64,000 bases of DNA, from NCBI GenBank assembly GCA_021731285.1, contig JAKFXR010000027.1, forward strand, positions 1 through 64,000, read 5' to 3'. This document shows, one piece after another, positions 20,709-48,615 of the stretch (position 1 is its first letter; each line of letters opens with the position of its first letter). The position numbers and the translations under genes were made by a program. Source of the stretch: Polaromonas sp. GTDB taxonomy: Bacteria; Pseudomonadota; Gammaproteobacteria; Burkholderiales; Burkholderiaceae_C. The notes beneath the pieces were generated by a model that worked only from the letters and a program-made list of their open reading frames with translations, was not told the DNA's origin and did no database searches.

Positions 20709-21611
20709 TCAGGCCGGAAAGACACCGGTGGACAGGTAGCGGTCGCCCCGGTCGCAGACGATAAACACAATCACCGCGTCCTTCACCGTTTTGGCGATCT
20801 CCTGCGCCACCCAGCAGGCGCCGGCCGCCGAGATGCCGGCAAAAATGCCCTCTTCACGCGCCATGCGGCGGCACATGTCTTCTGCATCAAGCTGACTCAC
20901 CAGCACCAGCTCATCCACATGGCTGGCATCGTAAATTTTCGGCATATAGGCCTCCGGCCATTTGCGTATGCCCGGGATGCGTGAACCTTCACTGGGCTGC
21001 GCGCCGACGATGCGGATCGCCGGGTTTTTCTCTTTCAGAAAACGCGAGACACCGGTGATGGTGCCCGTGGTGCCCATGGCGCTGACGAAATGCGTGACCT
21101 TGCCGCCCGTGTCGGCCCAGATCTCGGGGCCTGTGGTCTCGTAATGAATGCGCGGGTTGTCGTCATTGGCAAACTGGTCCAGCACCCTGCCCTTGCCATC
21201 TTTGGCCATCTGATCGGCCAGGTCACGCGCATGCTCCATGCCGCCGCTTTTGGGTGTGAGGATCAACTCGGCACCAAAGGCCTTCATGGTCTGCGCGCGT
21301 TCGATGGACAGGTCCTCCGGCATGATCAGCACCATTCGGTAGCCCTTGATGGCTGCCGCCATCGCCAGCGCAATGCCGGTGTTGCCCGAGGTGGCCTCGA
21401 TCAGCGTGTCGCCAGGCCGGATGTCGCCGCGCTCTTCAGCGCGCTTGATCATGGACAGCGCGGGCCGGTCTTTCACCGAGCCTGCGGGGTTGTTGCCTTC
21501 GAGTTTTCCGAGGACCACGTTGTTGCGTTGGGTGTTGTCTGCGGCCTGGATGCGTTGCAGTGCCACGAGCGGCGTTTTGCCAATGGCGTCTTCGATAGTG
21601 GGGTAGGTCAT
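20709..21611 (-). CDS. cysM: Cysteine synthase B
   Basis: MTYPTIEDAIGKTPLVALQRI...NPAGSVKDRPAL...EATSGNTGIALA; the longer ORF start to 21782 runs into tRNA sequence. Confidence 0.93.
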   Translation of the reverse strand: MTYPTIEDAIGKTPLVALQRIQAADNTQRNNVVLGKLEGNNPAGSVKDRPALSMIKRAEERGDIRPGDTLIEATSGNTGIALAMAAAIKGYRMVLIMPEDLSIERAQTMKAFGAELILTPKSGGMEHARDLADQMAKDGKGRVLDQFANDDNPRIHYETTGPEIWADTGGKVTHFVSAMGTTGTITGVSRFLKEKNPAIRIVGAQPSEGSRIPGIRKWPEAYMPKIYDASHVDELVLVSQLDAEDMCRRMAREEGIFAGISAAGACWVAQEIAKTVKDAVIVFIVCDRGDRYLSTGVFPA

Positions 21612-21651: not shown

Positions 21652-21687
21652 GCCCGGGTGGTGAAATTGGTAGACGCAGGGGACTCA
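21652..21687 (+). pseudogene. Truncated duplicate of tRNA-Leu(CAA) 5' half
   Basis: GCCCGGGTGGTGAAATTGGTAGACGCAGGGGACTCA identical over 36 nt to 21944-21979; continues AAAA then diverges. Confidence 0.9.
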
Positions 21688-21943
21688 AAAAGAGGTTTGT
21701 GTACCTTTTTTTGAAATCCGTGAACACCACGCAACAACAGGCGGGATAACGGTTTACGGCGACTGGTCGAATAGAGCCCCAAAGGGCTTATTGAGACCTA
21801 GGAGCCAAATAGGAGCCGCGGCGAAAAGCCAAGAGGCAGCAAGTAGAATTGAGACGTTGATCTGACATATTGAGCCTGCGGCGAGATGGAGGATCAACCA
21901 CGGTTAAACAGAGCATTCTGGACTAGTCCAGAGAATTCAAAAA
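21688..21943 (+). other. Unassigned, potentially structured insert between the two tRNA-Leu 5' copies
   Basis: Contains GTTGATC...GATCAAC, AGCCC-CAAA-GGGCT and palindrome TCTGGACTAGTCCAGA; bounded by direct repeats TCAAAAAG (21685, 21937). Confidence 0.5.
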
Positions 21944-22256
21944 GCCCGGGTGGTGAAATTGGTAGACGCAGGGGACTCAGACCAAATTTGAGCCCTCTTG
22001 AAGAAATTCTTGAGGTGAAGCCCGTCAAACTCGGCGAAGGCCCTGGACGCAAGTCCGAGCTAATACCGAGCCAAGCCCTCGTACCGAAAGGTTGAGGGAA
22101 GGTGTAGAGAGCAGACGGCGGGCACCTAAAGTCGAAAGACTATGGTGAAGGCGTGCTCCAGACCACGAACTCTCATGAGAGGGGCGGCGAAAGCCGAAGT
22201 GGTAAGAAAATCCCCCGCCGCAAGGCGTGCCGGTTCGATTCCGGCCCCGGGCACCA
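21944..22256 (+). tRNA. tRNA-Leu (anticodon CAA), interrupted by a group I intron
   Basis: Exon 1 21944-21978 and exon 2 22207-22256 join to GCCCGGGTGGTGAAATTGGTAGACGCAGGGGACTC^AAAATCCCCCGCCGCAAGGCGTGCCGGTTCGATTCCGGCCCCGGGCACCA, a full class II tRNA with anticodon loop CUCAAAA. Confidence 0.93.
21979..22206 (+). ncRNA. Group I intron (Azoarcus tRNA-Ile type, probable IC3)
   Basis: Core segments GTCAAACTCGGCGAAGG, ATACCGAGCCAAGCC, GGTGTAGAGAGCAGACGGC...CACCTAAAG, ACTATGGTGAAGGCGTGCTCCAGA match P3-P8 of the Azoarcus tRNA-Ile intron as remembered; terminal G before exon 2; no ORF. Confidence 0.92.
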
Positions 22257-22260
22257 CCAC

Positions 22261-22294
22261 AGGCCCTTCCAGCGATGGAAGGGCCTATTTTTTT
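22261..22294 (+). terminator. Rho-independent terminator after tRNA-Leu
   Basis: AGGCCCTTCCA-GCGA-TGGAAGGGCCT-ATTTTTTT. Confidence 0.93.
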
Positions 22295-22726
22295 ATCTCT
22301 GCGCATGCCCCTGGGGCGGAATCGAAAGATTCGCTACAGGCCGCACCAATCCGTCTTCTTGCAACCGTCCAAGTTCGAGGGGTACACGTTGGGGTACACC
22401 AAACTGACCAACGGCTGGAGGGACAAAAGTGGCTTCGAACCACTGCCCACTTAACCGGCCTGCGTACACTATGCCACCCCCCAATTACGCTGCTTCACGC
22501 TGCAATGAGAGCGCCGCACAACGCGGGGCAGCGAGCAACGGCTGCCGCGACAACCGTCGTCACAAAGTAGCCTGCGACCTGGCCTACCATTCGCTGCACT
22601 GGGGCCCTAGAGCACTGAGCCTGTATCACCATCTGAACGATTTGCACCAGCACCGCCGCAGACCCGAGCCAGCGTTTTTGGCCGATCTCTATGATGAACG
22701 GATGTTGCACCAACCAGGAGCGTTTC

Positions 22727-23341
22727 ATGGAGCCTAAATCTCATTGGGAACAGGTCTACACCACCAAGTCGGCCGAGGCCGTGAGCTGGTACCAGCCTCA
22801 TGCCACCCTGTCTCTGGAGATGATCCAGCGCGTCGCAACGGGCAAATCAGCGCACGTTGTGGATGTCGGTGGTGGCGCCTCCAGTCTGGTGGATGACCTG
22901 CTGGCAGGTGGCATGACAGACGTGAGTGTTCTGGACATCTCCGGCGCAGCGCTTGATGTGGCGCGTCGGCGGCTCGGTGAGCAGGCAAGGCGCGTGCACT
23001 GGATTGAAGGCGACATCACGACGGTCGAGCTTGAGAAGGCCAGCATTGACGTTTGGCACGACCGGGCTGTCTTTCACTTTCTCACCCATCCGTCAGATCG
23101 CGCTGCCTATGTCGCGCAAGTACGTCACGCCGTACGTCCTGGTGGGCGCGTCATCGTGGCCGCCTTCGGGCCGGATGGGCCGCTTCAATGCAGCGGTCTG
23201 CCCGTAGTGCGTTATGCACCCGATGCCTTGCATGCGGAGTTTGGCGGCGCGTTCGAGCTGCTGGAGCATGTGAAGGAAGACCACCACACCCCATCCGGGT
23301 TGGTGCAGCATTTTGTGTACTGCCATTGCGTGCTGCATTAG
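22727..23341 (+). CDS. Class I SAM-dependent methyltransferase
   Basis: MEPKSHWEQVYTTKSAEAVSWYQ...VVDVGGGASSLVDDLL. Confidence 0.9.
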   Translation: MEPKSHWEQVYTTKSAEAVSWYQPHATLSLEMIQRVATGKSAHVVDVGGGASSLVDDLLAGGMTDVSVLDISGAALDVARRRLGEQARRVHWIEGDITTVELEKASIDVWHDRAVFHFLTHPSDRAAYVAQVRHAVRPGGRVIVAAFGPDGPLQCSGLPVVRYAPDALHAEFGGAFELLEHVKEDHHTPSGLVQHFVYCHCVLH

Positions 23342-23368
23342 CCGCCGGAACGACCTGAGGACACCCTC

Positions 23369-24421
23369 TTGAAATCGCTGACGCAACCCGGTGTTCTGGC
23401 GACCCTGCTGGCCGCCACATTGTTTGGCGCCGGTACCCCGCTGGCCAAGCTGCTGTTGGAGCAAACCAGTCCGTGGCTATTGGCGGCCCTGCTATACCTT
23501 GGTTCCGGCATTGGCCTTTTCTTGCTGCGATGGTCGCGCGGATCCCCGTCCGTACGACTGCCCCTCGGTGAGTGGAAGTGGCTGGCAGGAGCCGTGGTTG
23601 CCGGTGGCATGGTCGGCCCCGTCTTGTTGATGGTGGGCCTCTCTGGCATGCCTGCTTCGGGCGCTTCGCTCTTGCTGAATGCGGAAGGCGTGCTGACCGC
23701 ACTCATCGCGTGGTTTGTATTCAAGGAAAATTTTGATAAGCGCATTGCGCTTGGAATGCTGGCCATAGTGGCGGGTGGCGTGGTTTTGTCATGGCCGGCG
23801 GATGCCAGCCTTGGCACGCTATGGCAGGCCCCGGCTGTGGTCGGCGCCTGTCTGGCCTGGGGCATAGACAACAACCTCACGCGCAAGGTTTCGCTGTCGG
23901 ATGCATCGTTTATTGCCATGGTCAAGGGCCTGGCTGCAGGCGCGACCAATCTGATGCTTGCCTTGCTGCTGGGCGCTGCCTGGCCGGATGTTCCCGTGGT
24001 GCTGGCGGCCGCCGTGCTGGGCTTTGCAAGCTATGGAGCCAGTCTGGCGCTGTTCGTTCTGGGTCTGCGCCATTTGGGAACGGCACGCACAGGCGCATAT
24101 TTCTCGATTGCACCGTTCGTAGGCGCTGCCCTGGCGATTGTGGCGCTGGGCGAACCGGTTACGCTGTCGCTGATCATCGCCGGCGCATTGATGGCGGGAG
24201 GCGTCTGGCTGCATCTGACGGAGAGCCACCAGCACTCGCATACCCACGAACCGCTTGAGCACAGCCATGAGCATGAGCACGCTGCAGGTGACGAACATCA
24301 CGATCATGCGCACGAGGCCCCCGTTGGGGCGGGTACCCGGCACACGCATTCGCACCGGCATTCCCCGATTGCTCACAGCCACGCGCATTTCCCCGACGCC
24401 CATCATCGCCATTCGCATTGA
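23369..24421 (+). CDS. EamA/DMT-family transporter with His-rich C-terminal tail
   Basis: TTG start; ten-TM DMT pattern; tail HQHSHTHEPLEHSHEHEHAAGDEHHDHAHEAP...HTHSHRHSPIAHSHAHFPDAHHRHSH. Confidence 0.9.
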   Translation: MKSLTQPGVLATLLAATLFGAGTPLAKLLLEQTSPWLLAALLYLGSGIGLFLLRWSRGSPSVRLPLGEWKWLAGAVVAGGMVGPVLLMVGLSGMPASGASLLLNAEGVLTALIAWFVFKENFDKRIALGMLAIVAGGVVLSWPADASLGTLWQAPAVVGACLAWGIDNNLTRKVSLSDASFIAMVKGLAAGATNLMLALLLGAAWPDVPVVLAAAVLGFASYGASLALFVLGLRHLGTARTGAYFSIAPFVGAALAIVALGEPVTLSLIIAGALMAGGVWLHLTESHQHSHTHEPLEHSHEHEHAAGDEHHDHAHEAPVGAGTRHTHSHRHSPIAHSHAHFPDAHHRHSH

Positions 24422-24739
24422 GCGGAACTGGTCACCTGGCAGCGCTGCTAGAGCTTCAGGAGACCTCGAAGGTTGAGATGGTGAAGGAGGATGACGCCAT
24501 GGCTTGAAGCCGCTGCAACTTGGGTCGCTGGTTCCGTAGCCATAAAGTAGGTGCAAAAAGTTCAAGTATGGACCAAGAACCTTCTTGTGGGCTGGGCACA
24601 AGTCCCACCTACAAGCCTCGTAATCGACTGCACAGCCATGAGAGGCCGCTGTGGATGTTGCCACTGCGTTTGGCCAAAATATCTCAAGTGCAGCGAGGAC
24701 CAGATTGCGCGAGCATGGGACCGGCGGACCCGAGCCCGG

Positions 24740-25090
24740 TCACTTTTGCACTCCGCTGGAAAGTGCTGGCTTATTCGGTGCGGGACAACCGCACCCGCCA
24801 GCGCCGGAAACGGTCGCACAACCAGCGGACACCACCGTGGGCTCGACCTGGCAGAACGCGTTGTTCCTGCGGCGCCGCACCAGCCATATGGCGACGCCCA
24901 CCAGAACGGCCACCATGGTGGCACTCGCGATGACAGCGGTCTTGCTACTCAAACCCAACCCATCACCGGTCGCCATCGCGATCAAGCCGGCCACCGAAGC
25001 ACCACCCACAACGGGAACCAGCAGGGGGATGGCACAGCAGGCGGCACACGCTCCGGCGACTCCAAGAACCGTCAACATAGGTTTCTTCAT
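24740..25090 (-). CDS. Cys-rich small membrane protein, candidate metal transporter
   Basis: MKKPMLTVLGVAGACAACCAIPLLVPVVGG...RRRRNNAFCQVEPTVVSAGCATVSGAGGCGCPAP; MerR-type promoter upstream. Confidence 0.7.
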   Translation of the reverse strand: MKKPMLTVLGVAGACAACCAIPLLVPVVGGASVAGLIAMATGDGLGLSSKTAVIASATMVAVLVGVAIWLVRRRRNNAFCQVEPTVVSAGCATVSGAGGCGCPAPNKPALSSGVQK

Positions 25091-25133
25091 TTTTCTCTCA
25101 CCTAGATGAACTCGGGGCAATTCCCTTAAACTG

Positions 25134-25164
25134 AATATAGAACCTCAAGTAACTTGAGATGCAA
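25134..25164 (-). promoter_or_regulatory. MerR-type promoter/operator
   Basis: Minus strand TTGCAT-N19-TATATT; spacer contains the exact dyad CTCAAGT-T-ACTTGAG. Confidence 0.88.
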
Positions 25165-25173
25165 GGGGCAGCA

Positions 25174-25638
25174 ATGAATAACCTACAGACGTCGGGGCAA
25201 TTGACGATTGGCACGATGGCGAGCCGCACCGGTATAAACGTATCGGCTATCAGGTACTACGAAGAGGTGGGCTTGATTCCCCAAGCGGCTCGACGACCCA
25301 GCGGACACCGCGTGTACGGCCAGGAAGTCGAAGAAGTGCTGATGCTGATCCGCCACTGTAGAGACTTCGGTTTCTCGATTGAAGAGACGCGGGCACTGAT
25401 TTCTCTCTCCACAAACGATGATCGCGATTGCGCGGAGGCACGCGACATCGCAAAGATTCATCTCGATGCAATCCGGACCAAATTGGCGGAGTTGCAAAAG
25501 CTTGAGCGCACGCTGTCAAATTTCGTGCAGGCCTGCACTGACCAGTGTTTGGGTGGCCCTGCACCCAAATGCACCATCCTCAAAGACTTGAGTTCAGACG
25601 GAGCGAAGAACGCTGGACCAACACGTTGCTGCGGCTAA
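25174..25638 (+). CDS. MerR-family metal-responsive regulator
   Basis: QLTIGTMASRTGINVSAIRYYEEVGLIPQAARRPSGHRVYG...ACTDQCLGGPAPKCTIL. Confidence 0.92.
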   Translation: MNNLQTSGQLTIGTMASRTGINVSAIRYYEEVGLIPQAARRPSGHRVYGQEVEEVLMLIRHCRDFGFSIEETRALISLSTNDDRDCAEARDIAKIHLDAIRTKLAELQKLERTLSNFVQACTDQCLGGPAPKCTILKDLSSDGAKNAGPTRCCG

Positions 25639-25659
25639 AGCGAGTAACCGTCAATCGAT

Positions 25660-25977
25660 ATGAAAACCTTTCTCTTGTACCTTGTCACCGCTCTTGCGGA
25701 AATCGTGGGTTGCTATTTGCCCTACCTCTGGTTGGCTAAACGCGGACCGATCTGGTTGTTGATTCCTGCCGGGGTGAGCCTGGCACTTTTTGCCTGGCTG
25801 CTGACTCTTCATGACGCCGCGGCCGGCCGTGTTTACGCCGCCTATGGTGGCGTTTACATTGCGGTCGCCCTGGCTTGGTTGTGGGCTATCGACGGCGTCC
25901 GCCCTTCTGCCTGGGACGTGGCCGGCGTCACGGTCAGCCTTATGGGCATGGGCTTGATCGCCTTCCAGCCAAAGTAG
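25660..25977 (+). CDS. ynfA: YnfA/UPF0060 family membrane protein
   Basis: [15 protein letters not shown]...[36 protein letters not shown]. Confidence 0.93.
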
Positions 25978-26068
25978 TCTCCCGGACGCAAACCCGGGAA
26001 AACAGCCTGGGTTAAACTGCACCGGCCTGCTGGAGACGCCCGATAACTTCTCCTGGCAAGCGTCCGCA

Positions 26069-26452
26069 ATGCACCGCCTCATCTTCCTGCTTCTTCTCGC
26101 CATGACCGTTTTTCAGCCTGCCCTTTCGGACATGCCGAAGCTGGCTGCCCCATCGGCGCCAACACTGTCTGCGCAAGTGAGCGGGAATCCGAACTCCTTC
26201 CAGGAGAACGCGGATCACGCGGCAATCTGTTTCTCCCATGTTGAAGCATCCAGCCCGGGCGCGCCAGCCGGCTGCGGTTCGGGCCAACTCTGCGGTTTGT
26301 GCAATATCTGCCAGGCATGCCACCACGCGGTCATGAATGAAGGCCGCATGGCGGCACCCGGTCACATCTCAGTTCGCCCTTCTTTCCCCTCCGTAGCTTC
26401 CGGCTACTTCAGCGCAGAACGCGCGAAAAACTTCAAGCCTCCAATTCTGTAA
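26069..26452 (+). CDS. Secreted Cys/His-containing small protein (CzcI-like)
   Basis: Signal peptide MHRLIFLLLLAMTVFQPALS; CGSGQLCGLCNICQACHH. Confidence 0.65.
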   Translation: MHRLIFLLLLAMTVFQPALSDMPKLAAPSAPTLSAQVSGNPNSFQENADHAAICFSHVEASSPGAPAGCGSGQLCGLCNICQACHHAVMNEGRMAAPGHISVRPSFPSVASGYFSAERAKNFKPPIL

Positions 26453-26544
26453 TTCTGTGCCCGGTGCGTCTGGTTTCAGGCGCACCTCACATCAGCCCTG
26501 CATCCTGCTGAGGGCTGGAATTCTTGAATTTTTGAGCTTGAACA

Positions 26545-27069
26545 ATGCCCTACATCAACCCGCCGCTCACTGGCGGCTCCCCCCGCAGTACGGTCGGTCC
26601 ACGCCTCGCGGGCTATTGGATCGCCCTGATACTGCTTTTAGTGGACCAGGCCGCCAAGTACTGGGTGCATGAATACACGCCATACGCGTGGAGTTTGCCC
26701 ATCACGGGCAACTTCAATCTGGTGCATGTCTGGAACTATGGCGCCGCCTTCAGCTTCTTGGCTGACGCGGGCGGCTGGCAGCGCTTCTTCTTTGGCGGGA
26801 TCGCATTGGTCGTTTCAGCCTGGTTGATGTTCATGCTGAGAAAGCCGCTCCCCAAGCTTGAGCTTTTGGGATACGCGTTGGTTCTCGGAGGTGCGCTGAG
26901 CAACGGCCTGGATAGGGCATTGCGCGGCTATGTTGTGGACTTTCTCGATTTCCATGCGCTGGGGTGGCACTGGCCGGCTTTCAATTTCGCCGACATGGGC
27001 ATTGTTTGCGGCGCGGTGCTTCTGGTTTTCGCGTCGTGGCGACACAGGCCAATGGAGAACCCGGCATGA
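26545..27069 (+). CDS. lspA: Lipoprotein signal peptidase (SPase II)
   Basis: LVDQAAKYWV, VHVWNYGAAFSFL, GGALSNGLDRALRGYVVDFLDFH, FNFADMGI. Confidence 0.95.
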   Translation: MPYINPPLTGGSPRSTVGPRLAGYWIALILLLVDQAAKYWVHEYTPYAWSLPITGNFNLVHVWNYGAAFSFLADAGGWQRFFFGGIALVVSAWLMFMLRKPLPKLELLGYALVLGGALSNGLDRALRGYVVDFLDFHALGWHWPAFNFADMGIVCGAVLLVFASWRHRPMENPA

Positions 27070-27503
27070 CGCCTTCATCCCTTACCTCTGAGCGGCAATG
27101 GAGGTTGTTGACGGTGAGCTGGCTGGTTGCGCTCGTCTCCACACTCGGTGCGCTGTTCTTCAGTGAAGTCATGGAGCTTGAGCCTTGCGTGCTCTGCTGG
27201 TATCAGCGGATCGCCATGTTCCCGCTGGTTCTGATTCTTGGCGCAGGCGCCTACACGCAGGATGCCAGCAGCGTGAAGTACGCCTTGCCCCTGGCGTTCT
27301 CCGGCTGGCTGGTCGCTTTCTACCACTGCCTTCTCTATGGCGGTTTTATTCCGGCGGCCATGCAGCCCTGCGGCAAAGGTGTTTCCTGCTCGGCGCAAAA
27401 GCTGGAGCTGATCGGCTTCATCACCATCCCGCTTTTGTCGCTTCTTGCTTTTTCCATCATCGTGCTGCTGCTACTGGCAGCAAAGAAAGACTCACGAAAA
27501 TGA
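27066..27503 (+). CDS. dsbB: Disulfide bond formation protein B
   Basis: EVMELEPCVLCWYQRIAMFPL (CVLC); second pair C(G)KGVSC. Confidence 0.93.
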   Translation: MTPSSLTSERQWRLLTVSWLVALVSTLGALFFSEVMELEPCVLCWYQRIAMFPLVLILGAGAYTQDASSVKYALPLAFSGWLVAFYHCLLYGGFIPAAMQPCGKGVSCSAQKLELIGFITIPLLSLLAFSIIVLLLLAAKKDSRK

Positions 27504-28156
27504 CCAACAAACAACTCACTATCATTTTGTGCGGGATCGTCGTCCTGCTCGGTTTCTCATTCGGTATATACGGCCACTTCAACAAAAAATCCGAGGCAAT
27601 TTCCCGCCTTGCGCAAGAGAACAGTTCTGTTTTCAATCGCGCACACGCGCCTACCTATGGACCCCGGGAGGCCAAGGTCCGCATCGTTGAGTTCTTTGAT
27701 CCAGCCTGCGAGACCTGCAGAGCCTTCTACCCCGTGGTCAAGCGCATCGTTGATGGCCACCAGGGGAAAGTGCAACTGGTGGTGCGCCTTGTGCCGTTCC
27801 ACAAAGGCTCAGATGTCGCCGCCAAAATCCTCATTGCGGCGCATCAGCAGAACCTGTTTTTTCCGGTGACGGAGGCTGTGCTCAATTCACAAGACGTATG
27901 GGCCGCGCATGACCAGCCTAACCCTGAGCGAATCTGGACCTTTTTGAAGGGAAGCAGCCTGGATGCTGTGAAAGCAAAACAATACGCCGGCTCTCCGGAA
28001 GCTGAAGCCACGCTAAAGCAGGATATGGATGACGCCAATACTCTGCAGGTCACAAGGACGCCCGGTTTCTTTGTCAATGGGCGGCCATTGAAGGAGTTCG
28101 GTCGTGAGCAACTCAAGGCCTTGGTGGATGAGGAAGTCAAACGTGCGTATCCCTAA
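27500..28156 (+). CDS. DsbA-family thiol:disulfide interchange protein
   Basis: N-terminal TM; VEFFDPACETCRAFYPVVK thioredoxin-fold active site CETC. Confidence 0.9.
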   Translation: MTNKQLTIILCGIVVLLGFSFGIYGHFNKKSEAISRLAQENSSVFNRAHAPTYGPREAKVRIVEFFDPACETCRAFYPVVKRIVDGHQGKVQLVVRLVPFHKGSDVAAKILIAAHQQNLFFPVTEAVLNSQDVWAAHDQPNPERIWTFLKGSSLDAVKAKQYAGSPEAEATLKQDMDDANTLQVTRTPGFFVNGRPLKEFGREQLKALVDEEVKRAYP

Positions 28157-28169
28157 CAGAGGCAAGACG

Positions 28170-28799
28170 ATGGGCGACAAACAGCATCGTTTCAGCCGGC
28201 GTGACATTCTGTATGCCGGAGGCATGCTTCTTGCCGGGGGAATGTTGACCTCATGTACGGACAAAAAAGCGCCCGTTGAAAGAAAATTCAACAGCATCGA
28301 CCTGACCGGTGCGGACTACGCCAAGGACTTTTCCCTCACCGACCATCATGGCCAGGCCAGGACCTTGAAGGATTTCCGCGGGAAGATTGTGACTGTCTTC
28401 TTCGGCTTTACCCAATGCCCTGACGTTTGTCCCACGACGATGGCCGAACTATCCGAGGTCAAACGGCTTCTGGGTCCGGACGCCGGCAAGTTGCAGGCGA
28501 TCTTCATCAGCGTGGATCCAGAGCGCGACACGCCGCTGCTCCTGGAAGCCTATATGAGGAATTTCGATCCGACCTTCCTGGCCATGCGACCGAGTCCAGA
28601 GCAATTGGCTGCGGTGGCCAGCCACTTCAAGATTTACTACAAAAAGGTGGAAGGCAGCAAGCCTGGTACTTATTCGATGGATCACACCGCCGGCACCTTC
28701 GTTTTTGACCCGCAAGGCCGTATCAGGCTCTACGGAAGGTATGGCAGCGGCGCCCAGCCTCTCGCCCAGGATATCCAGCTTCTCCTCAAAGGGGCGTAA
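28170..28799 (+). CDS. SCO1/SenC family copper chaperone
   Basis: FFGFTQCPDVCPTTMAEL (CPxxCP) and distal His DHTAGTFV. Confidence 0.95.
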   Translation: MGDKQHRFSRRDILYAGGMLLAGGMLTSCTDKKAPVERKFNSIDLTGADYAKDFSLTDHHGQARTLKDFRGKIVTVFFGFTQCPDVCPTTMAELSEVKRLLGPDAGKLQAIFISVDPERDTPLLLEAYMRNFDPTFLAMRPSPEQLAAVASHFKIYYKKVEGSKPGTYSMDHTAGTFVFDPQGRIRLYGRYGSGAQPLAQDIQLLLKGA

Positions 28800-28803
28800 T
28801 GGC

Positions 28804-30063
28804 ATGCCTGCAATGATGCATCTACCAAGAGGATGGGCCTTAACCCCAATATGCGCCGCAGCTGTCCTATTGGCCGTAACTGACTCTGCATGGAGCGCCG
28901 GTGCCAAGCAGCGAAATCAAGCGCCCACCACTCCGACGAAATCTGCGAATCAGGATGGCAAAGCGGAGGCCAAGCTCGTGGAGGTATACCGCCTGATAGG
29001 GACTGGTAACAGCCACGCAGCCTTGACAAGCGCGGAAGCGCTGGTTAAAGATTACCCGAACTTCCAGTTGGCGCAGCTCATTTATGGTGATTTGCTCACC
29101 GCTCACAATCGCCCCGTGCGCGCGCTGGGTGACTTTGCGGGCGACCTCCCTTCCGATGCCGCGTCCAGGCTGCAGGATCTGCGCGAGGAATCCCGGCTGC
29201 GCCTTCTTGCGCTCAGGGAGCGTCCACCCAAGGATGCCATCCCAACCCAGCTCCTGTCGCTATCGCCACGCAACAAGCACGCGATTGCCGTCGATGTTTC
29301 AAGGTCACGGCTGTATTTGTTTGAGAACGGAGGCAACGGGCCGCGACTACTGGCGGACTATTACATCTCTGTCGGCAAGGCGGGGGTAGACAAGAAAATT
29401 GAAGGCGATCAACGCACGCCGTTGGGCATTTACTTCATTACCAGCAACCTCGACCCCAAGAGCCTTAAGGACCTCTACGGTTCCGGCGCGTTGCCTATCA
29501 ACTATCCCAATGCGCTTGATGTCCGCCGAGGAAGAAGTGGCAGCGGCATCTGGCTACACGGTACGCCTTCCAACCAATTCAGCCGGGCGCCGCATGCCAC
29601 CGATGGCTGTGTCGCTGTTGCGAACCCTGATCTGGACCGGATTATCCGGACCGTGGAGATACGTACAACACCGGTTGTGATCTCGCGAAATCTGAAGTGG
29701 GTTGCACCCCAGAGCATGAATCTGGAGAAAGCCCGGTTCGAGGAGGTACTGCAGTCATGGGTCAAAGCGAAATCGGCGGGAGAGTTCGTGCAGTTCAGCA
29801 GTTTCTACGCGGAAGATTTCACCGCGGATGAAAAGACCCTGGTAGCCCACGGCTCCCTAAAAAAGACGAGTTCCGCAGCGGCCCGGGCGAGAAGCATCAA
29901 ACTAAGCGACATCTCATTGCTGCAATGGGCCGAAGAGTCAGGATTGGTAGTCGCCACGTTTGGAGAAGTCATTGCTGGCGAAAAGTCTGGACGAACCATT
30001 CGTCAGTATTGGGAGCGCCGAAAGGCTCAATGGAAGATTGTTTATGAAGGTGTCGTAGGGTAA
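28804..30063 (+). CDS. L,D-transpeptidase (YkuD) with C-terminal SnoaL-like region
   Basis: GIWLHGTPSNQFSRAPHATDGCVAVAN catalytic motif; signal peptide. Confidence 0.92.
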   Translation: MPAMMHLPRGWALTPICAAAVLLAVTDSAWSAGAKQRNQAPTTPTKSANQDGKAEAKLVEVYRLIGTGNSHAALTSAEALVKDYPNFQLAQLIYGDLLTAHNRPVRALGDFAGDLPSDAASRLQDLREESRLRLLALRERPPKDAIPTQLLSLSPRNKHAIAVDVSRSRLYLFENGGNGPRLLADYYISVGKAGVDKKIEGDQRTPLGIYFITSNLDPKSLKDLYGSGALPINYPNALDVRRGRSGSGIWLHGTPSNQFSRAPHATDGCVAVANPDLDRIIRTVEIRTTPVVISRNLKWVAPQSMNLEKARFEEVLQSWVKAKSAGEFVQFSSFYAEDFTADEKTLVAHGSLKKTSSAAARARSIKLSDISLLQWAEESGLVVATFGEVIAGEKSGRTIRQYWERRKAQWKIVYEGVVG

Positions 30064-30464
30064 TTCGGGCGCTGCATCTTGTCGGCAATCACTTTGGCCC
30101 GCGCACTGTCAATCAAGCTTTCACTTTTCGGGTCTATTGCCATCGGTTTGAACGCGCTAACGTTCGCTCGGCCAGTATTGCCATAGGGCAGTTTTCCGAG
30201 CAAGTGACCGACAGGCACAAGGCTGAGCCGAAAAAGTTGTCCCGACGCCTCAGTGAAATCCGATGTTTGGAGCGCAAAGCGAAACATCAACGTGTGGGTC
30301 TTGAGGTGCAGGGAAAGGACTTCCTGACCCAAAATATGCGCGGCAATCAACCAAGGCCATCGCTCCTCCGGCGGCTGACCAGCACTCACTTCAAATTCAT
30401 GAATCAATTGCTGGAAAGCGCGTAGCTTGATATTGTCCATAACGCCGTTTTCGTCAGTGCGCAT
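30042..30464 (-). CDS. DUF3703-like protein
   Basis: AAHILGQEVLSLHLKTHTLMFRFALQ...GKLPYGNTGRANVSAFKPMAI; start overlaps CDF stop. Confidence 0.78.
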   Translation of the reverse strand: MRTDENGVMDNIKLRAFQQLIHEFEVSAGQPPEERWPWLIAAHILGQEVLSLHLKTHTLMFRFALQTSDFTEASGQLFRLSLVPVGHLLGKLPYGNTGRANVSAFKPMAIDPKSESLIDSARAKVIADKMQRPNYPTTPS

Positions 30465-31395
30465 GTTGGCCAGCGTTGGGGACGACTTCCTCTTTGACGA
30501 AATTGCAACCGTCTTCCGTGTGCTCGCAGGCCCTTGCCTCCATCTGCAATGTGGTGTGAAAAACCTGGAATCGTTCGGCAAGCACTTCCTGCAGCGGCCG
30601 GAGTAACGACTCTGGTGGGACACCAGGTGCGTAGACCACGTGCGCGGTCAGGCTGGACTTTCCGCTAGTCAGTGCCCAAATATGCAGGTCATGCACACTT
30701 TGCACGCCCGGGACGGAGACCATGACCTGCATCACTTCCGGAACTTTGACACCTTGGGGAACGCCCTCAAGCAGTATGTTCAAGGTTTCCTTGAGAAGAA
30801 TCCAGGTTCGCGGCAGTACCCAAAGACCGATTGCTACAGCAATGAGCGGATCCACCCACGCCCAGCCGGTGTAGCGAATCAACACGGCACCACCAATGAC
30901 ACCAATCGAGCCGAGCATGTCGCTCCAGACTTCGAGATAGGCGCCCTTGATGTTCAGGCTGGCATCCTTTCCGCTACTCAGCAAACGCATGCTGATCAAG
31001 TTGATGACCAAGCCGATGGCGGCAATGACGATCATGGCGCCGGTTTGAATCTCTGGTGGGTTACTAAATCGCCCATAAGCTTCGACGAGGATGTAGATGG
31101 CTACACCGAATAACAACAGCGCATTGAATGCCGCAGCCAAGATTTCAAACCGGTGATAGCCGTAGGTCCTCAGTGCATCCGCTGGCCGCCTGGCTATGCG
31201 GATGGCCGCCACAGCTATAGCCAGGGCAGCCGTATCGGTGAACATATGCGCTGCATCGGAAATCAGGGCAAGGCTGCCTGTCATCAGCCCTCCGATCACC
31301 TCGGCGACCATAAACGTCGTGGTCAAGCCCAGCGCGATCCATAAAGAGCGCTCTTTTCCGCCTGTAGGCAGGGCGTGGTTGTGTCCGGCGCTCAT
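30454..31395 (-). CDS. czcD: CDF-family cation exporter (CzcD-like)
   Basis: ALISDAAHMFTDTAALAIA, YGYHRFEILAAAFNALLL, HDLHIWALTSG. Confidence 0.93.
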   Translation of the reverse strand: MSAGHNHALPTGGKERSLWIALGLTTTFMVAEVIGGLMTGSLALISDAAHMFTDTAALAIAVAAIRIARRPADALRTYGYHRFEILAAAFNALLLFGVAIYILVEAYGRFSNPPEIQTGAMIVIAAIGLVINLISMRLLSSGKDASLNIKGAYLEVWSDMLGSIGVIGGAVLIRYTGWAWVDPLIAVAIGLWVLPRTWILLKETLNILLEGVPQGVKVPEVMQVMVSVPGVQSVHDLHIWALTSGKSSLTAHVVYAPGVPPESLLRPLQEVLAERFQVFHTTLQMEARACEHTEDGCNFVKEEVVPNAGQHAH

Positions 31396-31494
31396 GGTCT
31401 TGCGTTCCTTGTAAGTATTAAATCTGGCTGCCGCCTATCGATTTTTGGACCGCCACTGTCTGCGCGACAGGCGCATAACAGTGCGTGTCATTCC

Positions 31495-33879
31495 TCAGTG
31501 AGCATGATCACGTGCATGACCATGCTTGTGATCTGCCTCGGGCTTGGCCGTCGCTTCGGACCCCTTGGCACCTCTCAAGAGTCGGAGGCCATTACCGACG
31601 ACCAGCAAGCTTGCGCCCATGTCTGCGAACACCGCCATCCACATCGTGGCAGTTCCAAACACGGCCATTACCAAGAAGATGCTTTTAATTCCCAAAGCAA
31701 GGCTGATGTTTTGCCACAAGATGGCGTGGGTCCGCTTTGATAGACTAACCGTCTCTGCCACGCGCAGCAGGTTGTCATTCATGATTACTACGTCGGCTGC
31801 TTCCATAGCCGTGTCAGTTCCTGCGGCACCCATGGCAAACCCGATGTCTGCCTGCGCCAGCGCTGGAGCGTCGTTAATGCCATCACCCGTCATGCCAGTG
31901 GCACCGTAGCGTTGCTGCATCTCCTTGATAGCTTCGAGTTTCGCCTCTGGCAGGAGGTCGCCGCGGGCATCGTCAATACCTGCAAGCCCGGCAATTGCCT
32001 TGGCTGTCGCCGCGTTATCGCCCGTCAGCATCACTGCAGTCACGCCCAGCGCTTTGAGGTCAATGATCGCCTGCTTGGATGTTTCCTTGATCGTGTCTGC
32101 GACAGCAAGTAAAGCCAGTACGCGTTTGTCGTCAGCCAGCAGGGTTATCGAGCGTCCCTGCTGCTCATGTATCGCCAGCTCGGCCTCCAGCTCAGGGCCA
32201 CAAAACCCCAACTCGTGAATGAACCGATGATTACCCAGGATCAGGCGCTGACCATTGATCAGCCCTTCAACGCCACGCCCCGGGAGAGCTTTGAAGCTAT
32301 CGACCTCTATTGCCTCCACAGCGAGCCCGAGCGCAATGGCTTTTGACACAGGATGGTCTGATCGGGCAGCCAGGGCGGCAGCACGCTGCATGGTGGAGGC
32401 CTCGTCGGCATCGCCCCAAACGCGCCGAACCACGAGTTTGGGCTTGCCTTCAGTGATGGTGCCGGTTTTATCCAGTGCCACTGCCTTCAAAAGCCTGGCA
32501 TCTTCCAGGTATGTCCCACCCTTGATGAGGATGCCTCTACGCGCAGCTGCCGACAAACCGCTCACCACCGTAACGGGAGTGGATATCACCAAAGCGCAAG
32601 GGCAGGCAATCACCAGCAGAACCAGGGCCTTGTAGAGCGCCTCCATCCAAGTGAAGCTGGTCAGCACCGGCAACAAAGCCGCCACAGCAATGGCAATGGC
32701 GAAAACTGCAGGCGTATAGATGGCCGCAAACCGATCCACGAATCGTTGGGTAGGCGCGCGGGTTCCCTGGGCCTCCTCGACCGCATGGATGATGCGCGCA
32801 AGCGTGGTGTCGTTTGCACCGGCCGTGACCCGCATATCCAGTTCACCGGTCTCGTTGATGGTGCCCGCGAACAACTGGTCCCCCGTGCCTTTGTCGATCG
32901 GGATGCTTTCACCGGTAATGGGCGCCTGGTTGACGGCGCTATTGCCTTTGATCACCACACCATCAAGAGGAACTCGCTCGCCCGGTTTGATACGGACAGT
33001 CGTCTCCAGTGCGACAGATGCCACAGGCGTTTCTACCCAGGAGCCGTCGGACGTGAGCGTCAGGGCCTGTGCGGGCGCCATGTCGAGCAGGCCTTTGATG
33101 GCGTTGCGAGCCCGATCAACCGCCTTGGCTTCAATCAGCTCCGCAATGGCATACAGCGCCATCACCATGGCCGCCTCGGGCCACTGCCCGATCAGGAACG
33201 CACCCGTAACGGCGACTGCCATCAAGGCATTGATGTTCAGCTTGCCGCGCAACAGTGCAGACATGCCCTTCTTATAGGTATCCAGTCCAGCGAGACCGAT
33301 TGCCAGGCCAGCCACGGCCATCCCGCCAATCTTCCACGCCATTGTCTCGGGCGCGAGATATGAAAGTACTTCTGCTCCGATAGCAAAAACCAAGGCCAGC
33401 ACCATGCGCCACACGCCCCCCGAAAAGCCATGTTCATCGTCGTGCGCCTCTTCGGCGCCTTCTGCACCTTGCTGGGAGCCCGCTTCGGGCAAAGGTTTGG
33501 GATCAAAACCAGCCTTGCGAATTGCCGCCAGCGCCAGTGGATACGCTTTCGGGGCGGCATCAATACGCAATGTGCGCGCGCCCAGCTGGAACCCTAACGA
33601 GCGAATCCCCGCAATAGGTTCGAGCGCCTGACGAATTTCCGACTCTTCCACCGCGCAATCCATCGTGGCGATGCGGAAAAACTGCCCGGCACCCCTTGTT
33701 TTTGGCGCCGGCGCCGCCGAAGCGGGTGGAGAGGCGCCTTCTGGAGCGCAACAGTCGTGGGAATGAGCCGCCGGCAGCGGTTTCGCCGCGGCGATGGGAG
33801 TCGCATTGGCGGGAGCACAGGATTGACCCGCACTGCAGCAGGAATCGGACGGGGTGTTTGGCAAGTTTTCGGATTTCAT
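31495..33879 (-). CDS. P1B-type heavy-metal ATPase (Zn/Cd/Pb type)
   Basis: TGES, CPCALVISTPV, DKTGTITEGKP, GDGINDAPALAQAD; Cys/His-rich N-terminus and His-rich C-terminus. Confidence 0.95.
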   Translation of the reverse strand: MKSENLPNTPSDSCCSAGQSCAPANATPIAAAKPLPAAHSHDCCAPEGASPPASAAPAPKTRGAGQFFRIATMDCAVEESEIRQALEPIAGIRSLGFQLGARTLRIDAAPKAYPLALAAIRKAGFDPKPLPEAGSQQGAEGAEEAHDDEHGFSGGVWRMVLALVFAIGAEVLSYLAPETMAWKIGGMAVAGLAIGLAGLDTYKKGMSALLRGKLNINALMAVAVTGAFLIGQWPEAAMVMALYAIAELIEAKAVDRARNAIKGLLDMAPAQALTLTSDGSWVETPVASVALETTVRIKPGERVPLDGVVIKGNSAVNQAPITGESIPIDKGTGDQLFAGTINETGELDMRVTAGANDTTLARIIHAVEEAQGTRAPTQRFVDRFAAIYTPAVFAIAIAVAALLPVLTSFTWMEALYKALVLLVIACPCALVISTPVTVVSGLSAAARRGILIKGGTYLEDARLLKAVALDKTGTITEGKPKLVVRRVWGDADEASTMQRAAALAARSDHPVSKAIALGLAVEAIEVDSFKALPGRGVEGLINGQRLILGNHRFIHELGFCGPELEAELAIHEQQGRSITLLADDKRVLALLAVADTIKETSKQAIIDLKALGVTAVMLTGDNAATAKAIAGLAGIDDARGDLLPEAKLEAIKEMQQRYGATGMTGDGINDAPALAQADIGFAMGAAGTDTAMEAADVVIMNDNLLRVAETVSLSKRTHAILWQNISLALGIKSIFLVMAVFGTATMWMAVFADMGASLLVVGNGLRLLRGAKGSEATAKPEADHKHGHARDHAH

Positions 33880-33885
33880 GCCTTA

Positions 33886-33916
33886 ATTGGAAACCCTGTA
33901 GCGGCCTTAAGGTCAA
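33886..33916 (-). promoter_or_regulatory. CadR/PbrR-type promoter
   Basis: Minus strand TTGACC-TTAAGGCCGCTACAGGGTT(19)-TCCAAT, imperfect ACC...CTACAGGGT dyad. Confidence 0.75.
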
Positions 33917-33975
33917 GTACCGATTAATCTAACCTTGTCAGCCGTATTGCCTTTGGCTTGAAGGAGAATTTCCTC

Positions 33976-34482
33976 ATGAAGATCGGAGAATTGGCGAAGC
34001 TTGCCCAAACACAATCGGAAACCATTCGTTTCTACGAGCGAGAGGGTCTTTTACCCGAGGCCAGCAGGAGTCAGGCGAACTATCGCGTCTATGACGAGAG
34101 TCACATCCAACGGCTTGCCTTTATCCGCCACTGTCGATCTTTGGATATGACGTTAGGCGAAATTCGAACTCTGCTTCACTTTAAGGATGCACCGGAAGAA
34201 GACTGCCGTGAGGTCAATGCGCTACTTGACGAGCATATTGACCATGTTGCCACGCGGATTCGCGGGCTCCGTAGTCTTGAAAAAGAGTTGAAGTCACTGC
34301 GCCTGCAGTGCCAGTCGGGCAATGCCTCAGCAGATTGCGGAATTCTCTCGGGTCTGGAAAAAGCCGCCCGGGGTAGAAAGCAGCACCCCACCCGAGACCT
34401 AGGGCACGCAGCGCATATTCAAGGAACCCACCCGCAAATCGCACTGTCCCCGCACGGCCATCCCGCAACGCTTCGCAAATAA
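33976..34482 (+). CDS. cadR: MerR-family Cd(II)/Pb(II)-responsive regulator
   Basis: MKIGELAKLAQTQSETIRFYEREGLLPEASRSQANYRVYDE...DCREVNALLDEHIDHV; divergent from P1B ATPase. Confidence 0.92.
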   Translation: MKIGELAKLAQTQSETIRFYEREGLLPEASRSQANYRVYDESHIQRLAFIRHCRSLDMTLGEIRTLLHFKDAPEEDCREVNALLDEHIDHVATRIRGLRSLEKELKSLRLQCQSGNASADCGILSGLEKAARGRKQHPTRDLGHAAHIQGTHPQIALSPHGHPATLRK

Positions 34483-34525
34483 AAACCAAAGATGGGTCAT
34501 CTAGGTCTTTGACCGCTGCTGGCAC

Positions 34526-34617
34526 CATCAATGGGAATGGCGATGATGGGCATCCGGGAAATGTGTGTGGCTGTGGGCAATCGGGTCGTGCCTGTGGGTG
34601 TGAACGTGACGGGTTCC
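34526..34617 (-). pseudogene. Remnant of a His-rich transporter C-terminus
   Basis: GTRHVHTHRHDPIAHSHTHFPDAHHRHSH closely matches the tail of the DMT protein at 23369-24421. Confidence 0.8.
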
Positions 34618-34683
34618 CCCTATGACGCACCGTACCGCAATGATCTGATCCCGACTGCTCGTCAGCGTACCGAGGCCGCACTG

Positions 34684-34737
34684 GTTAGTTTTACCAACCA
34701 CTCTCAAAGAAGTTTTCATGAAGAAGATTGTTATTGT
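34684..34737 (+). repeat. Leader plus start of a truncated small gene (copy 1)
   Basis: GTTAGTTTTACCAACCACTCTCAAAGAAGTTTTCATGAAGAAGATTGTTATTG, near-identical to 43614-43667. Confidence 0.85.
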
Positions 34738-34779
34738 CTCCCTCGCTAGCCTACGAAAGTTTCAGCTAAAATAGTTTTA

Positions 34780-35154
34780 ATGCGACGCTGGTTTCTCATC
34801 TTCTTGCTGCTCATGGTGCAGCTCCAGTTCGTCTGGGGTGCCGCCGCCGCATATTGCGGGCACGAGACGTCGACGGCCCCAGTTACGCATTTCGGTCATC
34901 ACGAGCATCGTCATCAAGGCGATGACCCGAGAGCGCCAACCCCGGAAGAAAACAGCAATGGTCAGGGGATTGTTGTCCATGCCGATTGCGGCACCTGTCA
35001 TTTGGGAACTTCCGGGACGCTGCCCGCTCCTGGTTTTGTGATGGCCGGAGTGGAGCCGTCTGAATACCTTGCAGGCCGAGGACCGCGCTTCAGTTCCCAC
35101 GTCCCTGCCGCACCTGAACGTCCTGATCGAATCGCACACCTAGCTGCTGCCTGA
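34780..35154 (+). CDS. czcI: CzcI-like periplasmic protein
   Basis: MRRWFLIFLLLMVQLQFVWGAAAAYCGHET...HFGHHEHRH; first gene before czcCBA. Confidence 0.85.
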   Translation: MRRWFLIFLLLMVQLQFVWGAAAAYCGHETSTAPVTHFGHHEHRHQGDDPRAPTPEENSNGQGIVVHADCGTCHLGTSGTLPAPGFVMAGVEPSEYLAGRGPRFSSHVPAAPERPDRIAHLAAA

Positions 35155-35246
35155 TTCGGTGGCGGCATCGCGTCCGCCCGTCTTTGACCGACGTTACCCG
35201 ATGTCGCCTTCGGTTTACTTTTTCATAAGCCAAGAAGGATGATTCG

Positions 35247-36524
35247 ATGCAATTTCCCATTCTCGCGCTGGCCCTCGTGCTGGTTGCTGTCACTGTGCCC
35301 GCAAGCGCACAGAGTTCGCCTGCCGGGAACCCCTTATCCCTCGCCGAAGCGATGCGCCTGGCCGAGACAGCCAACACAGTGGTGCGCTCCCGCGAGGCTC
35401 AACTCGCCGCCGCCGAGGGCGCGCGCAGTGAAGCCGCTTCCCCGTTCTTCAATAACCCCGAGCTGAGCGTCGAAAAATCGCGCCGACGGCCCCCCCCTCC
35501 CGACGCGAGTACGACGGAATGGACTGCAGGCATTTCCCAGCCGATCGAGATTGCGGGTCAGCAGTCCCGCCGGCGCGAGGCCGCCGCAGCCTCTCTAGAG
35601 GCTCTGCGTGCGGAAATTGAGGATGCACGACGGCAGGCCCGTTCGGACGCCGCAACCCGCTTCTTTGCCTTGTTGGCCGCACAGCGACGACTGGCTATCG
35701 AACAACGCTCATTTGAGCTCTTCGACCGCACCTCGCAGGCGGTCGCCAAGCGCCGAAGCGCGGGGGAGGACACTCGCCTGGACGCCAACGTGGCATTGAT
35801 TGAGGCGGAGCGTGCACGCAACGCGGTTGCGCGGGCACGCGAGCAAATCCTTGAAGCGCGCGGCGAACTGGCCACCGTGCTGCAGTTGCCGGCTGCGGCG
35901 CTGCCTGAGATTGCGGGAGAGATTGGCACACCCACTGGGGACCGCCTTCCCTACAGGCTGGATCAACTGGAGTCTTCCACTCAAGCGCACTCAAGGCTGC
36001 GGGCTTTTGCCGCCCGTCAGGAAGCGGCGCAAGCTCGCCTCGCCTTGGCGCAGGCAGGCCGGTACCCGGACGTGACAGTGGGAGTTAAAGTGGGCCGGGA
36101 AGGCCCCGGCATTGCCCGCGAGCGAGTCACCACGCTGGCGCTTTCTGTGCCGCTTCCGCTCTTTAAGCGCAACGACGCTGCCATCGGTGAAGCAGTGACA
36201 GCCGCCACCCAAGCCGAAATCGACCGTACAAGCGCCATGCGCGATGCGCAGGCTCAGGTCAGGCGGCTTTGGAGCAAGCTTGAAAGCCAGCAGGAGCGCG
36301 TGCAGCGCCTGCAGCGCACCATGCTTGCAGCCTCTACTGATAACCAGCAGCTTGCCGCGAAATCCAGGCAGGCTGGCCAAATCGGCCTTCTGGAGCAACT
36401 TATCGTCAACCGTCAGGCACTGGACGCCGAGCGCGATCTGATCGAAGCGCTGGCTGACTATCACACGACCCGAATCGAACTTGAAAACGCGGCCGGCTGG
36501 TCGCAGGAAGGAACTGCGCGATGA
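35247..36524 (+). CDS. czcC: Outer-membrane factor of heavy-metal RND efflux
   Basis: TolC-family; SLAEAMRLAETANTVVRSREAQL; position before czcB. Confidence 0.92.
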   Translation: MQFPILALALVLVAVTVPASAQSSPAGNPLSLAEAMRLAETANTVVRSREAQLAAAEGARSEAASPFFNNPELSVEKSRRRPPPPDASTTEWTAGISQPIEIAGQQSRRREAAAASLEALRAEIEDARRQARSDAATRFFALLAAQRRLAIEQRSFELFDRTSQAVAKRRSAGEDTRLDANVALIEAERARNAVARAREQILEARGELATVLQLPAAALPEIAGEIGTPTGDRLPYRLDQLESSTQAHSRLRAFAARQEAAQARLALAQAGRYPDVTVGVKVGREGPGIARERVTTLALSVPLPLFKRNDAAIGEAVTAATQAEIDRTSAMRDAQAQVRRLWSKLESQQERVQRLQRTMLAASTDNQQLAAKSRQAGQIGLLEQLIVNRQALDAERDLIEALADYHTTRIELENAAGWSQEGTAR

Positions 36525-37756
36525 ATATGTATAACGATGCCGTTGGGAGCCCTGTGCGCTTAACTGCGATGGCCGTGGCCTTGTCTATGGTGTTTGCACT
36601 GGCTGCTTGCGGCAAGAGCGGTGAGAAGGACGAACATGCCGGTGAAGGCGCCAAGCATGCAGAGCACGCTGGCGAGAAGAAAGAGAAGGAAGGGGAAGGC
36701 GAACACAAGGAAGGCGAAAAGGAACTGACCCTGACCACCGAAGAGGCGGAGAAAGCCGGCGTCAAGGTTCAGGAGATCAAGACCGAAGCCTTGGGCGAAA
36801 CCATCGTGGTGACCGCTACGATCGAGCCCAACCAGGAGCGCGTTGTGCGCGTGGCGCCACGCGTCGAGGGAAGAGTCATCTCTATGCCAGCGAAGCTCGG
36901 TGACCGGGTAGCCGTGGGGCAGACCCTGGCGACTCTGGACAGTGTTGCTGTGGGCGAGGCCCACGCGGCGTGGGTACAGGCCCAGGCTGAGCTGCAGATC
37001 GCAGAAAGCGATTTCAAGCGGGCTGAGTCGCTTATCGCGGACGAAATAATCCCACGCAAGGACTTCCTGCGTGCCCAAGCCGAAAGAGACAAGGCCGCAG
37101 CTAACGCCCGCAACTCTTCAGACCGGTTACGACTGCTCGGAGGGGCGCCACGGGCGCAAGGTGGCGGTGTGTCCACCTTCGCCTTGACGTCGCCTTTCGC
37201 AGGCACCGTGATCGAGAAAAAAGCAACTTTAGGTGGCTTGGCCAGCCCGAGCGAACCGATCTTCACCATTGCCGACCTGGGCCGGGTCTGGATTCAGGCG
37301 GCCCTGCCGGAATCCGCTCTGGCGAAAGTGCAGGTAGGCGCCGGCGCTAAAGTGACGGTGCCGGCCTACCCCGCCGAGGCATTCAGCGGACGCGTGGCGC
37401 ATATCGGCGCTGGTGTCAACAAGGATACGCGCACAGTGGCTGCGCGCATTGAAGTCGCAAACGCGGACGGGCGCCTGAAGCCCGAAATGTTCGCCACAGC
37501 AACCATCGAGGTGGCTGGCGAAAAGCGCGGCGTCATGGCGCTGCCTGACGAAGCAATCGTGCTGATGCAAGGGCAACCCACAGTCTTCGTCTTTGAACAG
37601 GGCGCCTACGAGGCGCGTTTGGTCGAGCCCGGCGAACGGATCGGCGGGCGGACGGTGCTCAAGTCCGGCATCAAACCGGGCGAGCAGGTCGTGACTTCGG
37701 GCGCCTACGCGCTAAAGGCTCGTCAGCAGAAGTCACAGCTCGGCCACGGGCATTGA
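36521..37756 (+). CDS. czcB: Periplasmic adaptor of heavy-metal RND efflux
   Basis: His/Glu/Lys-rich N-terminus; RVVRVAPRVEGRV...FAGTVIEKKATLGGLASPSEPIFTIADLGRVWIQA. Confidence 0.93.
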   Translation: MNMYNDAVGSPVRLTAMAVALSMVFALAACGKSGEKDEHAGEGAKHAEHAGEKKEKEGEGEHKEGEKELTLTTEEAEKAGVKVQEIKTEALGETIVVTATIEPNQERVVRVAPRVEGRVISMPAKLGDRVAVGQTLATLDSVAVGEAHAAWVQAQAELQIAESDFKRAESLIADEIIPRKDFLRAQAERDKAAANARNSSDRLRLLGGAPRAQGGGVSTFALTSPFAGTVIEKKATLGGLASPSEPIFTIADLGRVWIQAALPESALAKVQVGAGAKVTVPAYPAEAFSGRVAHIGAGVNKDTRTVAARIEVANADGRLKPEMFATATIEVAGEKRGVMALPDEAIVLMQGQPTVFVFEQGAYEARLVEPGERIGGRTVLKSGIKPGEQVVTSGAYALKARQQKSQLGHGH

Positions 37757-37771
37757 GAAGGATTACAAAAA

Positions 37772-40909: not shown

Positions 40910-40919
40910 AGGAGACAAC

Positions 40920-41258: not shown

Positions 41259-41301
41259 TTCGCTAGTTCCCTATTTCTATTACCAACCGAAAGGAAAACC
41301 C

Positions 41302-41670: not shown

Positions 41671-41752
41671 ACACAGCTCATCGAGAGCGTCGTAAGGCGC
41701 TTCCAGTGGTGCCCACCAGGAGGACCAGACCATACTTCGCCGTGTAACGGAT

Positions 41753-43378: not shown

Positions 43379-43423
43379 CGGGGACTCCCGCCCTGGCTGT
43401 TGAATTCCGCTGAAGTCTGACCC

Positions 43424-43603: not shown

Positions 43604-43613
43604 ACTTATTTTT

Positions 43614-48598: not shown

Positions 48599-48615
48599 AC
48601 GCACCAACAATCACG

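Follow-up and report, generated by a model that had tools for sequence, protein, structure and literature searches.

A group I intron-bearing tRNA-Leu(CAA) gene inside the end of an integrative element that splits the native tRNA-Leu(CAA) gene of its host

A tRNA-Leu(CAA) gene with a group I intron

The DNA analyzed here (the window) is a stretch of 64,000 nucleotides from Polaromonas sp. At positions 21944-22256 it holds a tRNA-Leu(CAA) gene that a group I intron of 228 nt interrupts directly after C34 (Table 1). As an earlier note on this DNA had claimed, removal of the segment leaves a class II tRNA-Leu: the exons join into 85 nt with the anticodon CAA and an encoded CCA end, the joined sequence is identical to the uninterrupted tRNA-Leu(CAA) of near relatives (L014, L015 and L017), and its fold presents the acceptor, anticodon, variable and T stems. 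The Rfam Intron_gpI covariance model (RF00028), which the earlier note had named as a check, matches the intron with 30.6 bits (E=1.2e-5; E=9.6e-6 across the whole genome). A default Rfam scan does not report it, because this value is below the gathering score of 50 bits, which is a database threshold and not a biological feature. ARAGORN likewise did not call the intron-bearing gene in the window, in keeping with the earlier expectation that standard tRNA finders may miss it. A scan for promoters found none, which is weak evidence.

Table 1. Features of the intron-bearing gene and of the element end in the window
Feature	Position	Strand	Basis or remark
Chromosomal flank, ORF that we take from its sequence to be a cysteine synthase (cysM-like)	20709..21611	-	Outer start codon uncertain (ORF listed 20709-21782); flanks the intact tRNA-Leu(CAA) of relatives
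Orphan 5' half of the native intronless tRNA-Leu(CAA)	21652..21686	+	35/35 identity to the 5' exon; cysM flank as beside the intact gene of relatives
att core CTCAAAA (anticodon loop 32-38), left junction attL	21684..21690	+	Common to attL and the right ends
Element left end, attL to replacement tRNA	21691..21943	+	Missing from the empty sites of relatives; junction type recurs at other loci
Inferred element interior to the window end	21691..64000	.	Inferred; metal efflux and cobalamin genes; extent unproved, contigs C5 and C43 unjoined
5' exon, replacement tRNA-Leu(CAA), last base C34	21944..21978	+	Sequence
Group I intron, 228 nt, terminal G; divides the att core as CTC^AAAA	21979..22206	+	Rfam RF00028 E=1.2e-5; covariation
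Internal guide GAGCCC; P1 partner is exon GGACTC 21973-21978, C-G at the splice site	21990..21995	+	Alignment/structure
P7 5' strand GAGCA	22109..22113	+	Alignment/structure
P7 3' strand TGCTC	22154..22158	+	Alignment/structure
3' exon, replacement tRNA-Leu(CAA), CCA encoded	22207..22256	+	Sequence
Terminator-like hairpin, then T run, 3' of the tRNA	22261..22286	+	Sequence scan

To examine the fold, we used a structural alignment of 61 related introns covering P1-P10 (58 base pairs). Pairing is kept in 95.6% of its cells, and both sides have changed in 32 of the 58 pairs, as against 14.7 on average in shuffles and at most 13 with slid partners; the covariation is located in P2, P3, P5a, P6a, P7, P8 and P9. 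The conserved P3-P8 core with the guanosine site in P7, by which group I introns are recognized, is present, and the terminal G (22206) is invariant across the aligned introns. Together, the Rfam match and the covariation bear out the original reading of a tRNA-Leu(CAA) split by a group I intron. P7 of the window intron reads GAGCA/TGCTC, and ACTA/TAGT is found at this place in two relatives, namely the tRNA-Leu(UAA) intron of a Burkholderiales MAG (L072) and the tRNA-Arg(CCU) intron of genome G011; therefore, the compensatory change proposed for P7 (AGCA/TGCT versus ACTA/TAGT) is real.

The usual pair at the 5' splice site of group I introns is U.G. It is absent from the window intron, which has C-G instead in its P1 (GGaCUC/GAGcCC), with the 5' exon ending at C34 as previously placed. 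The C-G pair, too, had been proposed before, and it is present in 54 of the 61 aligned introns; the other seven, all in Leu(UAA) hosts, have U.G, and the splice pair therefore tracks the first base of the anticodon. C-G is here a conserved variant rather than a sign of decay, and the intron is probably self-splicing, judging from its conserved structure.

By scanning genome contigs for the pattern of Leu(CAA) with an intron core, we obtained 103 stretches, nearly all from beta- and gammaproteobacteria, so that the Leu(CAA) host is not rare, and the earlier note was wrong to suppose it unusual. When their exons were joined by a script, nearly all gave a clean tRNA-Leu(CAA), and a few were without a partner under the 3' splice rule. 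The intron tree took in 98 distinct CAA introns, and a branch supported at 100/98 separates them from the Leu(UAA) introns, a pattern that fits a single host switch from UAA to CAA. One stretch, from a MAG labelled Mycobacterium (L057), has an intron-bearing Leu(CAA) of proteobacterial type that is probably a contamination. The Burkholderiales MAG mentioned above (L072:854-1693) has intron-bearing genes for both Leu(UAA) and Leu(CAA), about 0.6 kb apart. The intron in the tRNA-Arg(CCU) of G011 (G011:C93:7560-7738; L040), which belongs to the same genus as the window, is a 222-nt group I intron with ACTA/TAGT in P7, and the tRNA-Arg(CCU) of the window itself (13317-13392) is intronless.

Element ends and their recurrence

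An orphan 5' half of the native gene is found 292 bp upstream of the intron-bearing gene, and foreign sequence follows directly after its CTCAAAA. The 3' counterpart of this half, likewise an orphan, lies on another contig of this genome, C43 (G000, 21108-21156), with CTCAAAA just before it, and a tyrosine integrase (PF00589 and Arm-DNA-bind_3) starts about 120 bp away; the att ends of this genome thus lie on two separate draft contigs, C5 and C43. In relatives with the empty site, G004, G026 and G033 among them, the cysM-side left flank runs through an intact tRNA-Leu(CAA) into the C43 right flank. The native tRNA is rebuilt at neither junction, the crossover at the 7-bp core having left orphan halves at both ends, and no other intact Leu(CAA) was found in the window's genome, its other leucine tRNAs being GAG, CAG, UAG and UAA. 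The earlier reading of this locus was right about the intron-bearing gene but overlooked the native half 292 bp upstream and the element to which the gene belongs. An assembly artefact was considered as the source of these ends and rejected, because isolate and complete genomes have the identical end structure. Just beyond attR (L032:5110-5310, G000:C43), the 3' end of the tRNA-Leu and the sequence that follows it occur as partial copies in a tandem array.

The inferred element carries metal efflux genes at 30454-40909 of the window (cation efflux, a P-type ATPase and an OEP/HlyD/RND set), a MerR regulator at 25159-25638, a cobalamin cluster at 44411-62307 (CobN, CobW, CbiJ/CobK, TP methylases and CbtA) and a cobalamin riboswitch at 62785-63020 on the minus strand. 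Its presumed right part includes a complete Wadjet type II operon, JetA2-JetB2-JetC2-JetD2 (L042:5556-13923, G000:C43). No trb/tra conjugation genes were found among the scanned proteins of this element, the middle of which may be unassembled.

Of the 103 stretches, 31 have the left junction (GGACTC joined to AAAAA and mostly then TAGG), with the intron-bearing gene 218-292 bp downstream. Right ends were retrieved from 20 other genomes: 16 of these have the CTCAAAA core and an integrase 60-93% identical to that of the window, and the remaining four gave no integrase, two of them being situated where a contig ends or close to it. Two Variovorax, one Pseudorhodoferax and one Diaphorobacter have elements of about 66.9 kb that share 98.8-100% identity over about 18-19 kb at each end; as these are four bacteria of three genera with different chromosomal settings, the intron-bearing tRNA travels with the element. 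The other 72 of the 103 loci are without an orphan half of the window type, so the intron-bearing Leu(CAA) also exists without the element. In Ca. Vallotia (L082, L108, L121 and L123), which are reduced insect endosymbionts, the intron-bearing tRNA-Leu(CAA) is kept, again without an orphan half.

An order-wide scan for the left junction matched the window and only one other of 399 genomes. Since such matches were too rare, we took an integrase-first route through 401 genomes of the window's family, in which the intron was not required; 44 of them have the integrase, and these were grouped by the core adjoining it into CTCAAAA, CTTAAAA and Tn4371-type. Ten genomes besides the window have the CTCAAAA core, and in 10/10 a Leu(CAA)-intron gene lies just inside the other end. 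The CTTAAAA core, which is that of the Leu(UAA) loop, was found in eight genomes and in second copies in G680 and G416; in nine of these elements, an intron-bearing Leu(UAA) gene is located about 170 bp inside, and in G587 (genome 87% complete) no intron-bearing tRNA was found. At the Tn4371-type core, ATGAAAAA (the complement of TTTTTCAT), which is a non-tRNA site, there is no replacement tRNA; in one genome of this group (G776), a different contig holds a single intron-bearing Leu(UAA), which no orphan half adjoins.

In all 20 elements, the window's included, the anticodon of the replacement is that of the target, a match that rests on very few independent switches by the integrase tree, in which the two target specificities form separate clades. 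Among the 20 integrase-first elements, which cover two specificities and integrases with as little as about 60% identity, no intronless replacement tRNA was seen. An intact target Leu(CAA) was found in none of the 11 CAA-element genomes (0/11), and in the UAA-element genomes Leu(UAA) was either not seen or reduced to broken ends, against Tn4371-type controls, most of which have both Leu(UAA) and Leu(CAA) intact. G680 and G416 have both native genes broken and only intron-bearing copies present. Elsewhere, lon and a conjugal-transfer gene of the CagX/TrbG type flank an intron-bearing Leu(UAA) gene (L034:920-3646, G029:C34), which suggests a further element end.

A possible role for the intron and the alternatives

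We propose that an integrative element crossed over in the CTCAAAA loop and carries the intron-bearing Leu(CAA) as both a replacement and a shield, an account that we consider likely as a whole. As read from the sequence, the crossover is in the anticodon loop, the native gene is lost, a whole tRNA with the matching anticodon is on the element and the intron is in the att core. The tyrosine integrase recombines at this 7-bp loop and turns the host's tRNA-Leu(CAA) into two useless halves, and the whole tRNA-Leu with the anticodon of the broken gene, some 170-292 bp inside the left end, is after insertion the only intact source found; with no other intact target tRNA found, the host would need this replacement. 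Its transcript would then self-splice by means of the group I intron at C34/A35, as the conserved structure suggests. Because an intron inside the core (CTC^AAAA) leaves no contiguous attB in the replacement, the integrase should be unable to attack it or to excise wrongly, and a second element should be unable to break the sole working copy. An intronless replacement, by comparison, would place another uninterrupted core within the element, about 200 bp from its end, and make the host's only Leu(CAA) a target again. The intron would take the core out of the DNA, and splicing would restore the loop in the RNA. As to the shield in particular, that is, an element family which breaks a tRNA, supplies a copy with the 7-bp core split by a self-splicing intron and so blocks re-targeting by itself or its rivals, we lean slightly towards it.

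It is also quite possible, if short of probable, that the tRNA-Leu on the element is a spare copy of the kind known from tRNA-dependent lysogeny and that the intron is no shield but a neutral passenger from an ancestral intron-bearing tRNA-Leu(UAA). Phages do likewise with their tRNAs and no intron is reported there in the accessible part of PMC10865867; group I introns at this tRNA-Leu site are, according to works cited in PMC3984707, old and common; the CAA introns look like a single switch from UAA; and intron-bearing copies exist outside the element. Against a mere passenger are the count of 0/20 for intronless replacements among integrase-first elements, across both specificities and integrases to about 60% identity, and the placement of the intron exactly in the core.

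The gene might instead be a decayed pseudogene, with another tRNA such as Leu(UAA) reading UUG; its splicing is predicted only, the splice pair is C-G and not the usual U.G, and tRNA-Leu(UAA) is intact in the window's genome. We regard this as very unlikely, since P1-P10 and the exons are conserved over 61 introns with compensatory changes, and since G680 and G416, with Leu(UAA) and Leu(CAA) both broken, have intron-bearing copies only. Least credible of all, and contradicted by the data, is an ordinary chromosomal gain of an intron by tRNA-Leu(CAA), the orphan half being an unrelated duplication or an assembly error. The draft state of the window's genome and the many loci without an orphan half would allow for it, but the junction recurs in isolates and complete genomes, the paired right ends bear the integrase, near-identical elements bring the gene into different chromosomal settings and the empty site is retained in relatives.

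Relation to known elements and significance

Group I introns of bacterial tRNA genes are known from cyanobacterial Leu(UAA), Azoarcus Ile(CAU) and Agrobacterium Arg(CCU). The window intron has the same fold as these and shares the insertion point 34/35 with the Leu(UAA) introns found in this analysis; it differs from the known ones in its Leu(CAA) host, its C-G splice pair and its carriage by an integrative element. Acidovorax and Burkholderia, too, have group I introns, in their tRNA-Ile2, as found by the tRNAscan-SE authors (PMC8450103).

The window's integrase is 64-65% identical to the integrases with the Tn4371-type core, which marks it as a homolog of the Tn4371 family; the att of that family, TTTTTCAT, is absent from the window's element, the core of which is CTCAAAA. 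In G716, repeats of GATTTTAAG bound 61,807 bp that include a UAA-type integrase, a Rieske ring-hydroxylating dioxygenase and T4SS coupling, TrbE, TrbL and TrbI proteins. GATTTTAAG is the reverse complement of CTTAAAATC, which consists of the Leu(UAA) anticodon loop and two stem bases. The size, the 9-bp repeat GATTTTAAG and the cargo are as described for ICE_KKS102Tn4677 (PMC11448139, PMC9960961, PMC6563109), and by these three marks we identify the UAA-type sister element in G716 as what must be that ICE. ICE_KKS102Tn4677 and the Tn4371-family ICEs thus have integrases homologous to those of the intron-tRNA elements, and the window's element differs from ICE_KKS102Tn4677 in its CTCAAAA core. 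The same papers place the site of ICE_KKS102Tn4677 upstream of a Gly tRNA or at the 3' end of a tRNA-Leu, and their accessible parts make no mention of an intron or a replacement tRNA for it or for the Tn4371-family ICEs.

Among phages, the closest parallel that we consider is the tRNA-dependent lysogeny of actinobacterial phages (Guerrero-Bustamante and Hatfull 2024, PMC10865867). In the accessible part of that study, these phages share with the elements described here a tyrosine integrase, a short core in a host tRNA that is left unrebuilt, and a whole tRNA of matching isotype brought by the phage; in the case of phage Gaia, the target is tRNA-Leu-CAA. Here too the element-borne tRNA has the isotype and the anticodon of the target, as expected of tRNA-dependent integration. 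The elements described here differ in being of ICE type, in belonging to proteobacteria and in having a group I intron within the core; no intron in the replacement tRNA is mentioned for the phages in that part of the study. The arrangement thus resembles tRNA-dependent lysogeny in its anatomy, with an intron added.

The available portion of PMC4390854 credits Randau and Soll with the idea that the disruption of tRNA genes is a guard against integration, and in Caldiarchaeum a distance of 1.8 kb, with a recombinase gene in it, separates a 5' tRNA fragment from an intron-bearing copy downstream (Sugahara 2012, PMC3293823). The escape of disrupted tRNA genes from integration is the idea common to both cases; the archaeal one concerns archaeal introns and a guard on the side of the host, whereas here the intron is of group I and the guard would be on the element itself. 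In the open literature searched, no arrangement of an intron and an integrase together at tRNA genes is reported.

These observations point to a possible job for the group I introns of bacterial tRNAs, beyond their being merely tolerated. The older suggestion of tRNA introns as a guard against integration can now be tested in a system for which laboratory work on the conjugative element ICE_KKS102Tn4677 exists, and tRNA-dependent integration would be extended from phages to ICE-type elements. The arrangement may also account for the apparent lack of Leu(CAA) or Leu(UAA) in proteobacterial annotations, and the exact ends given here can now be used for mapping a group of islands.
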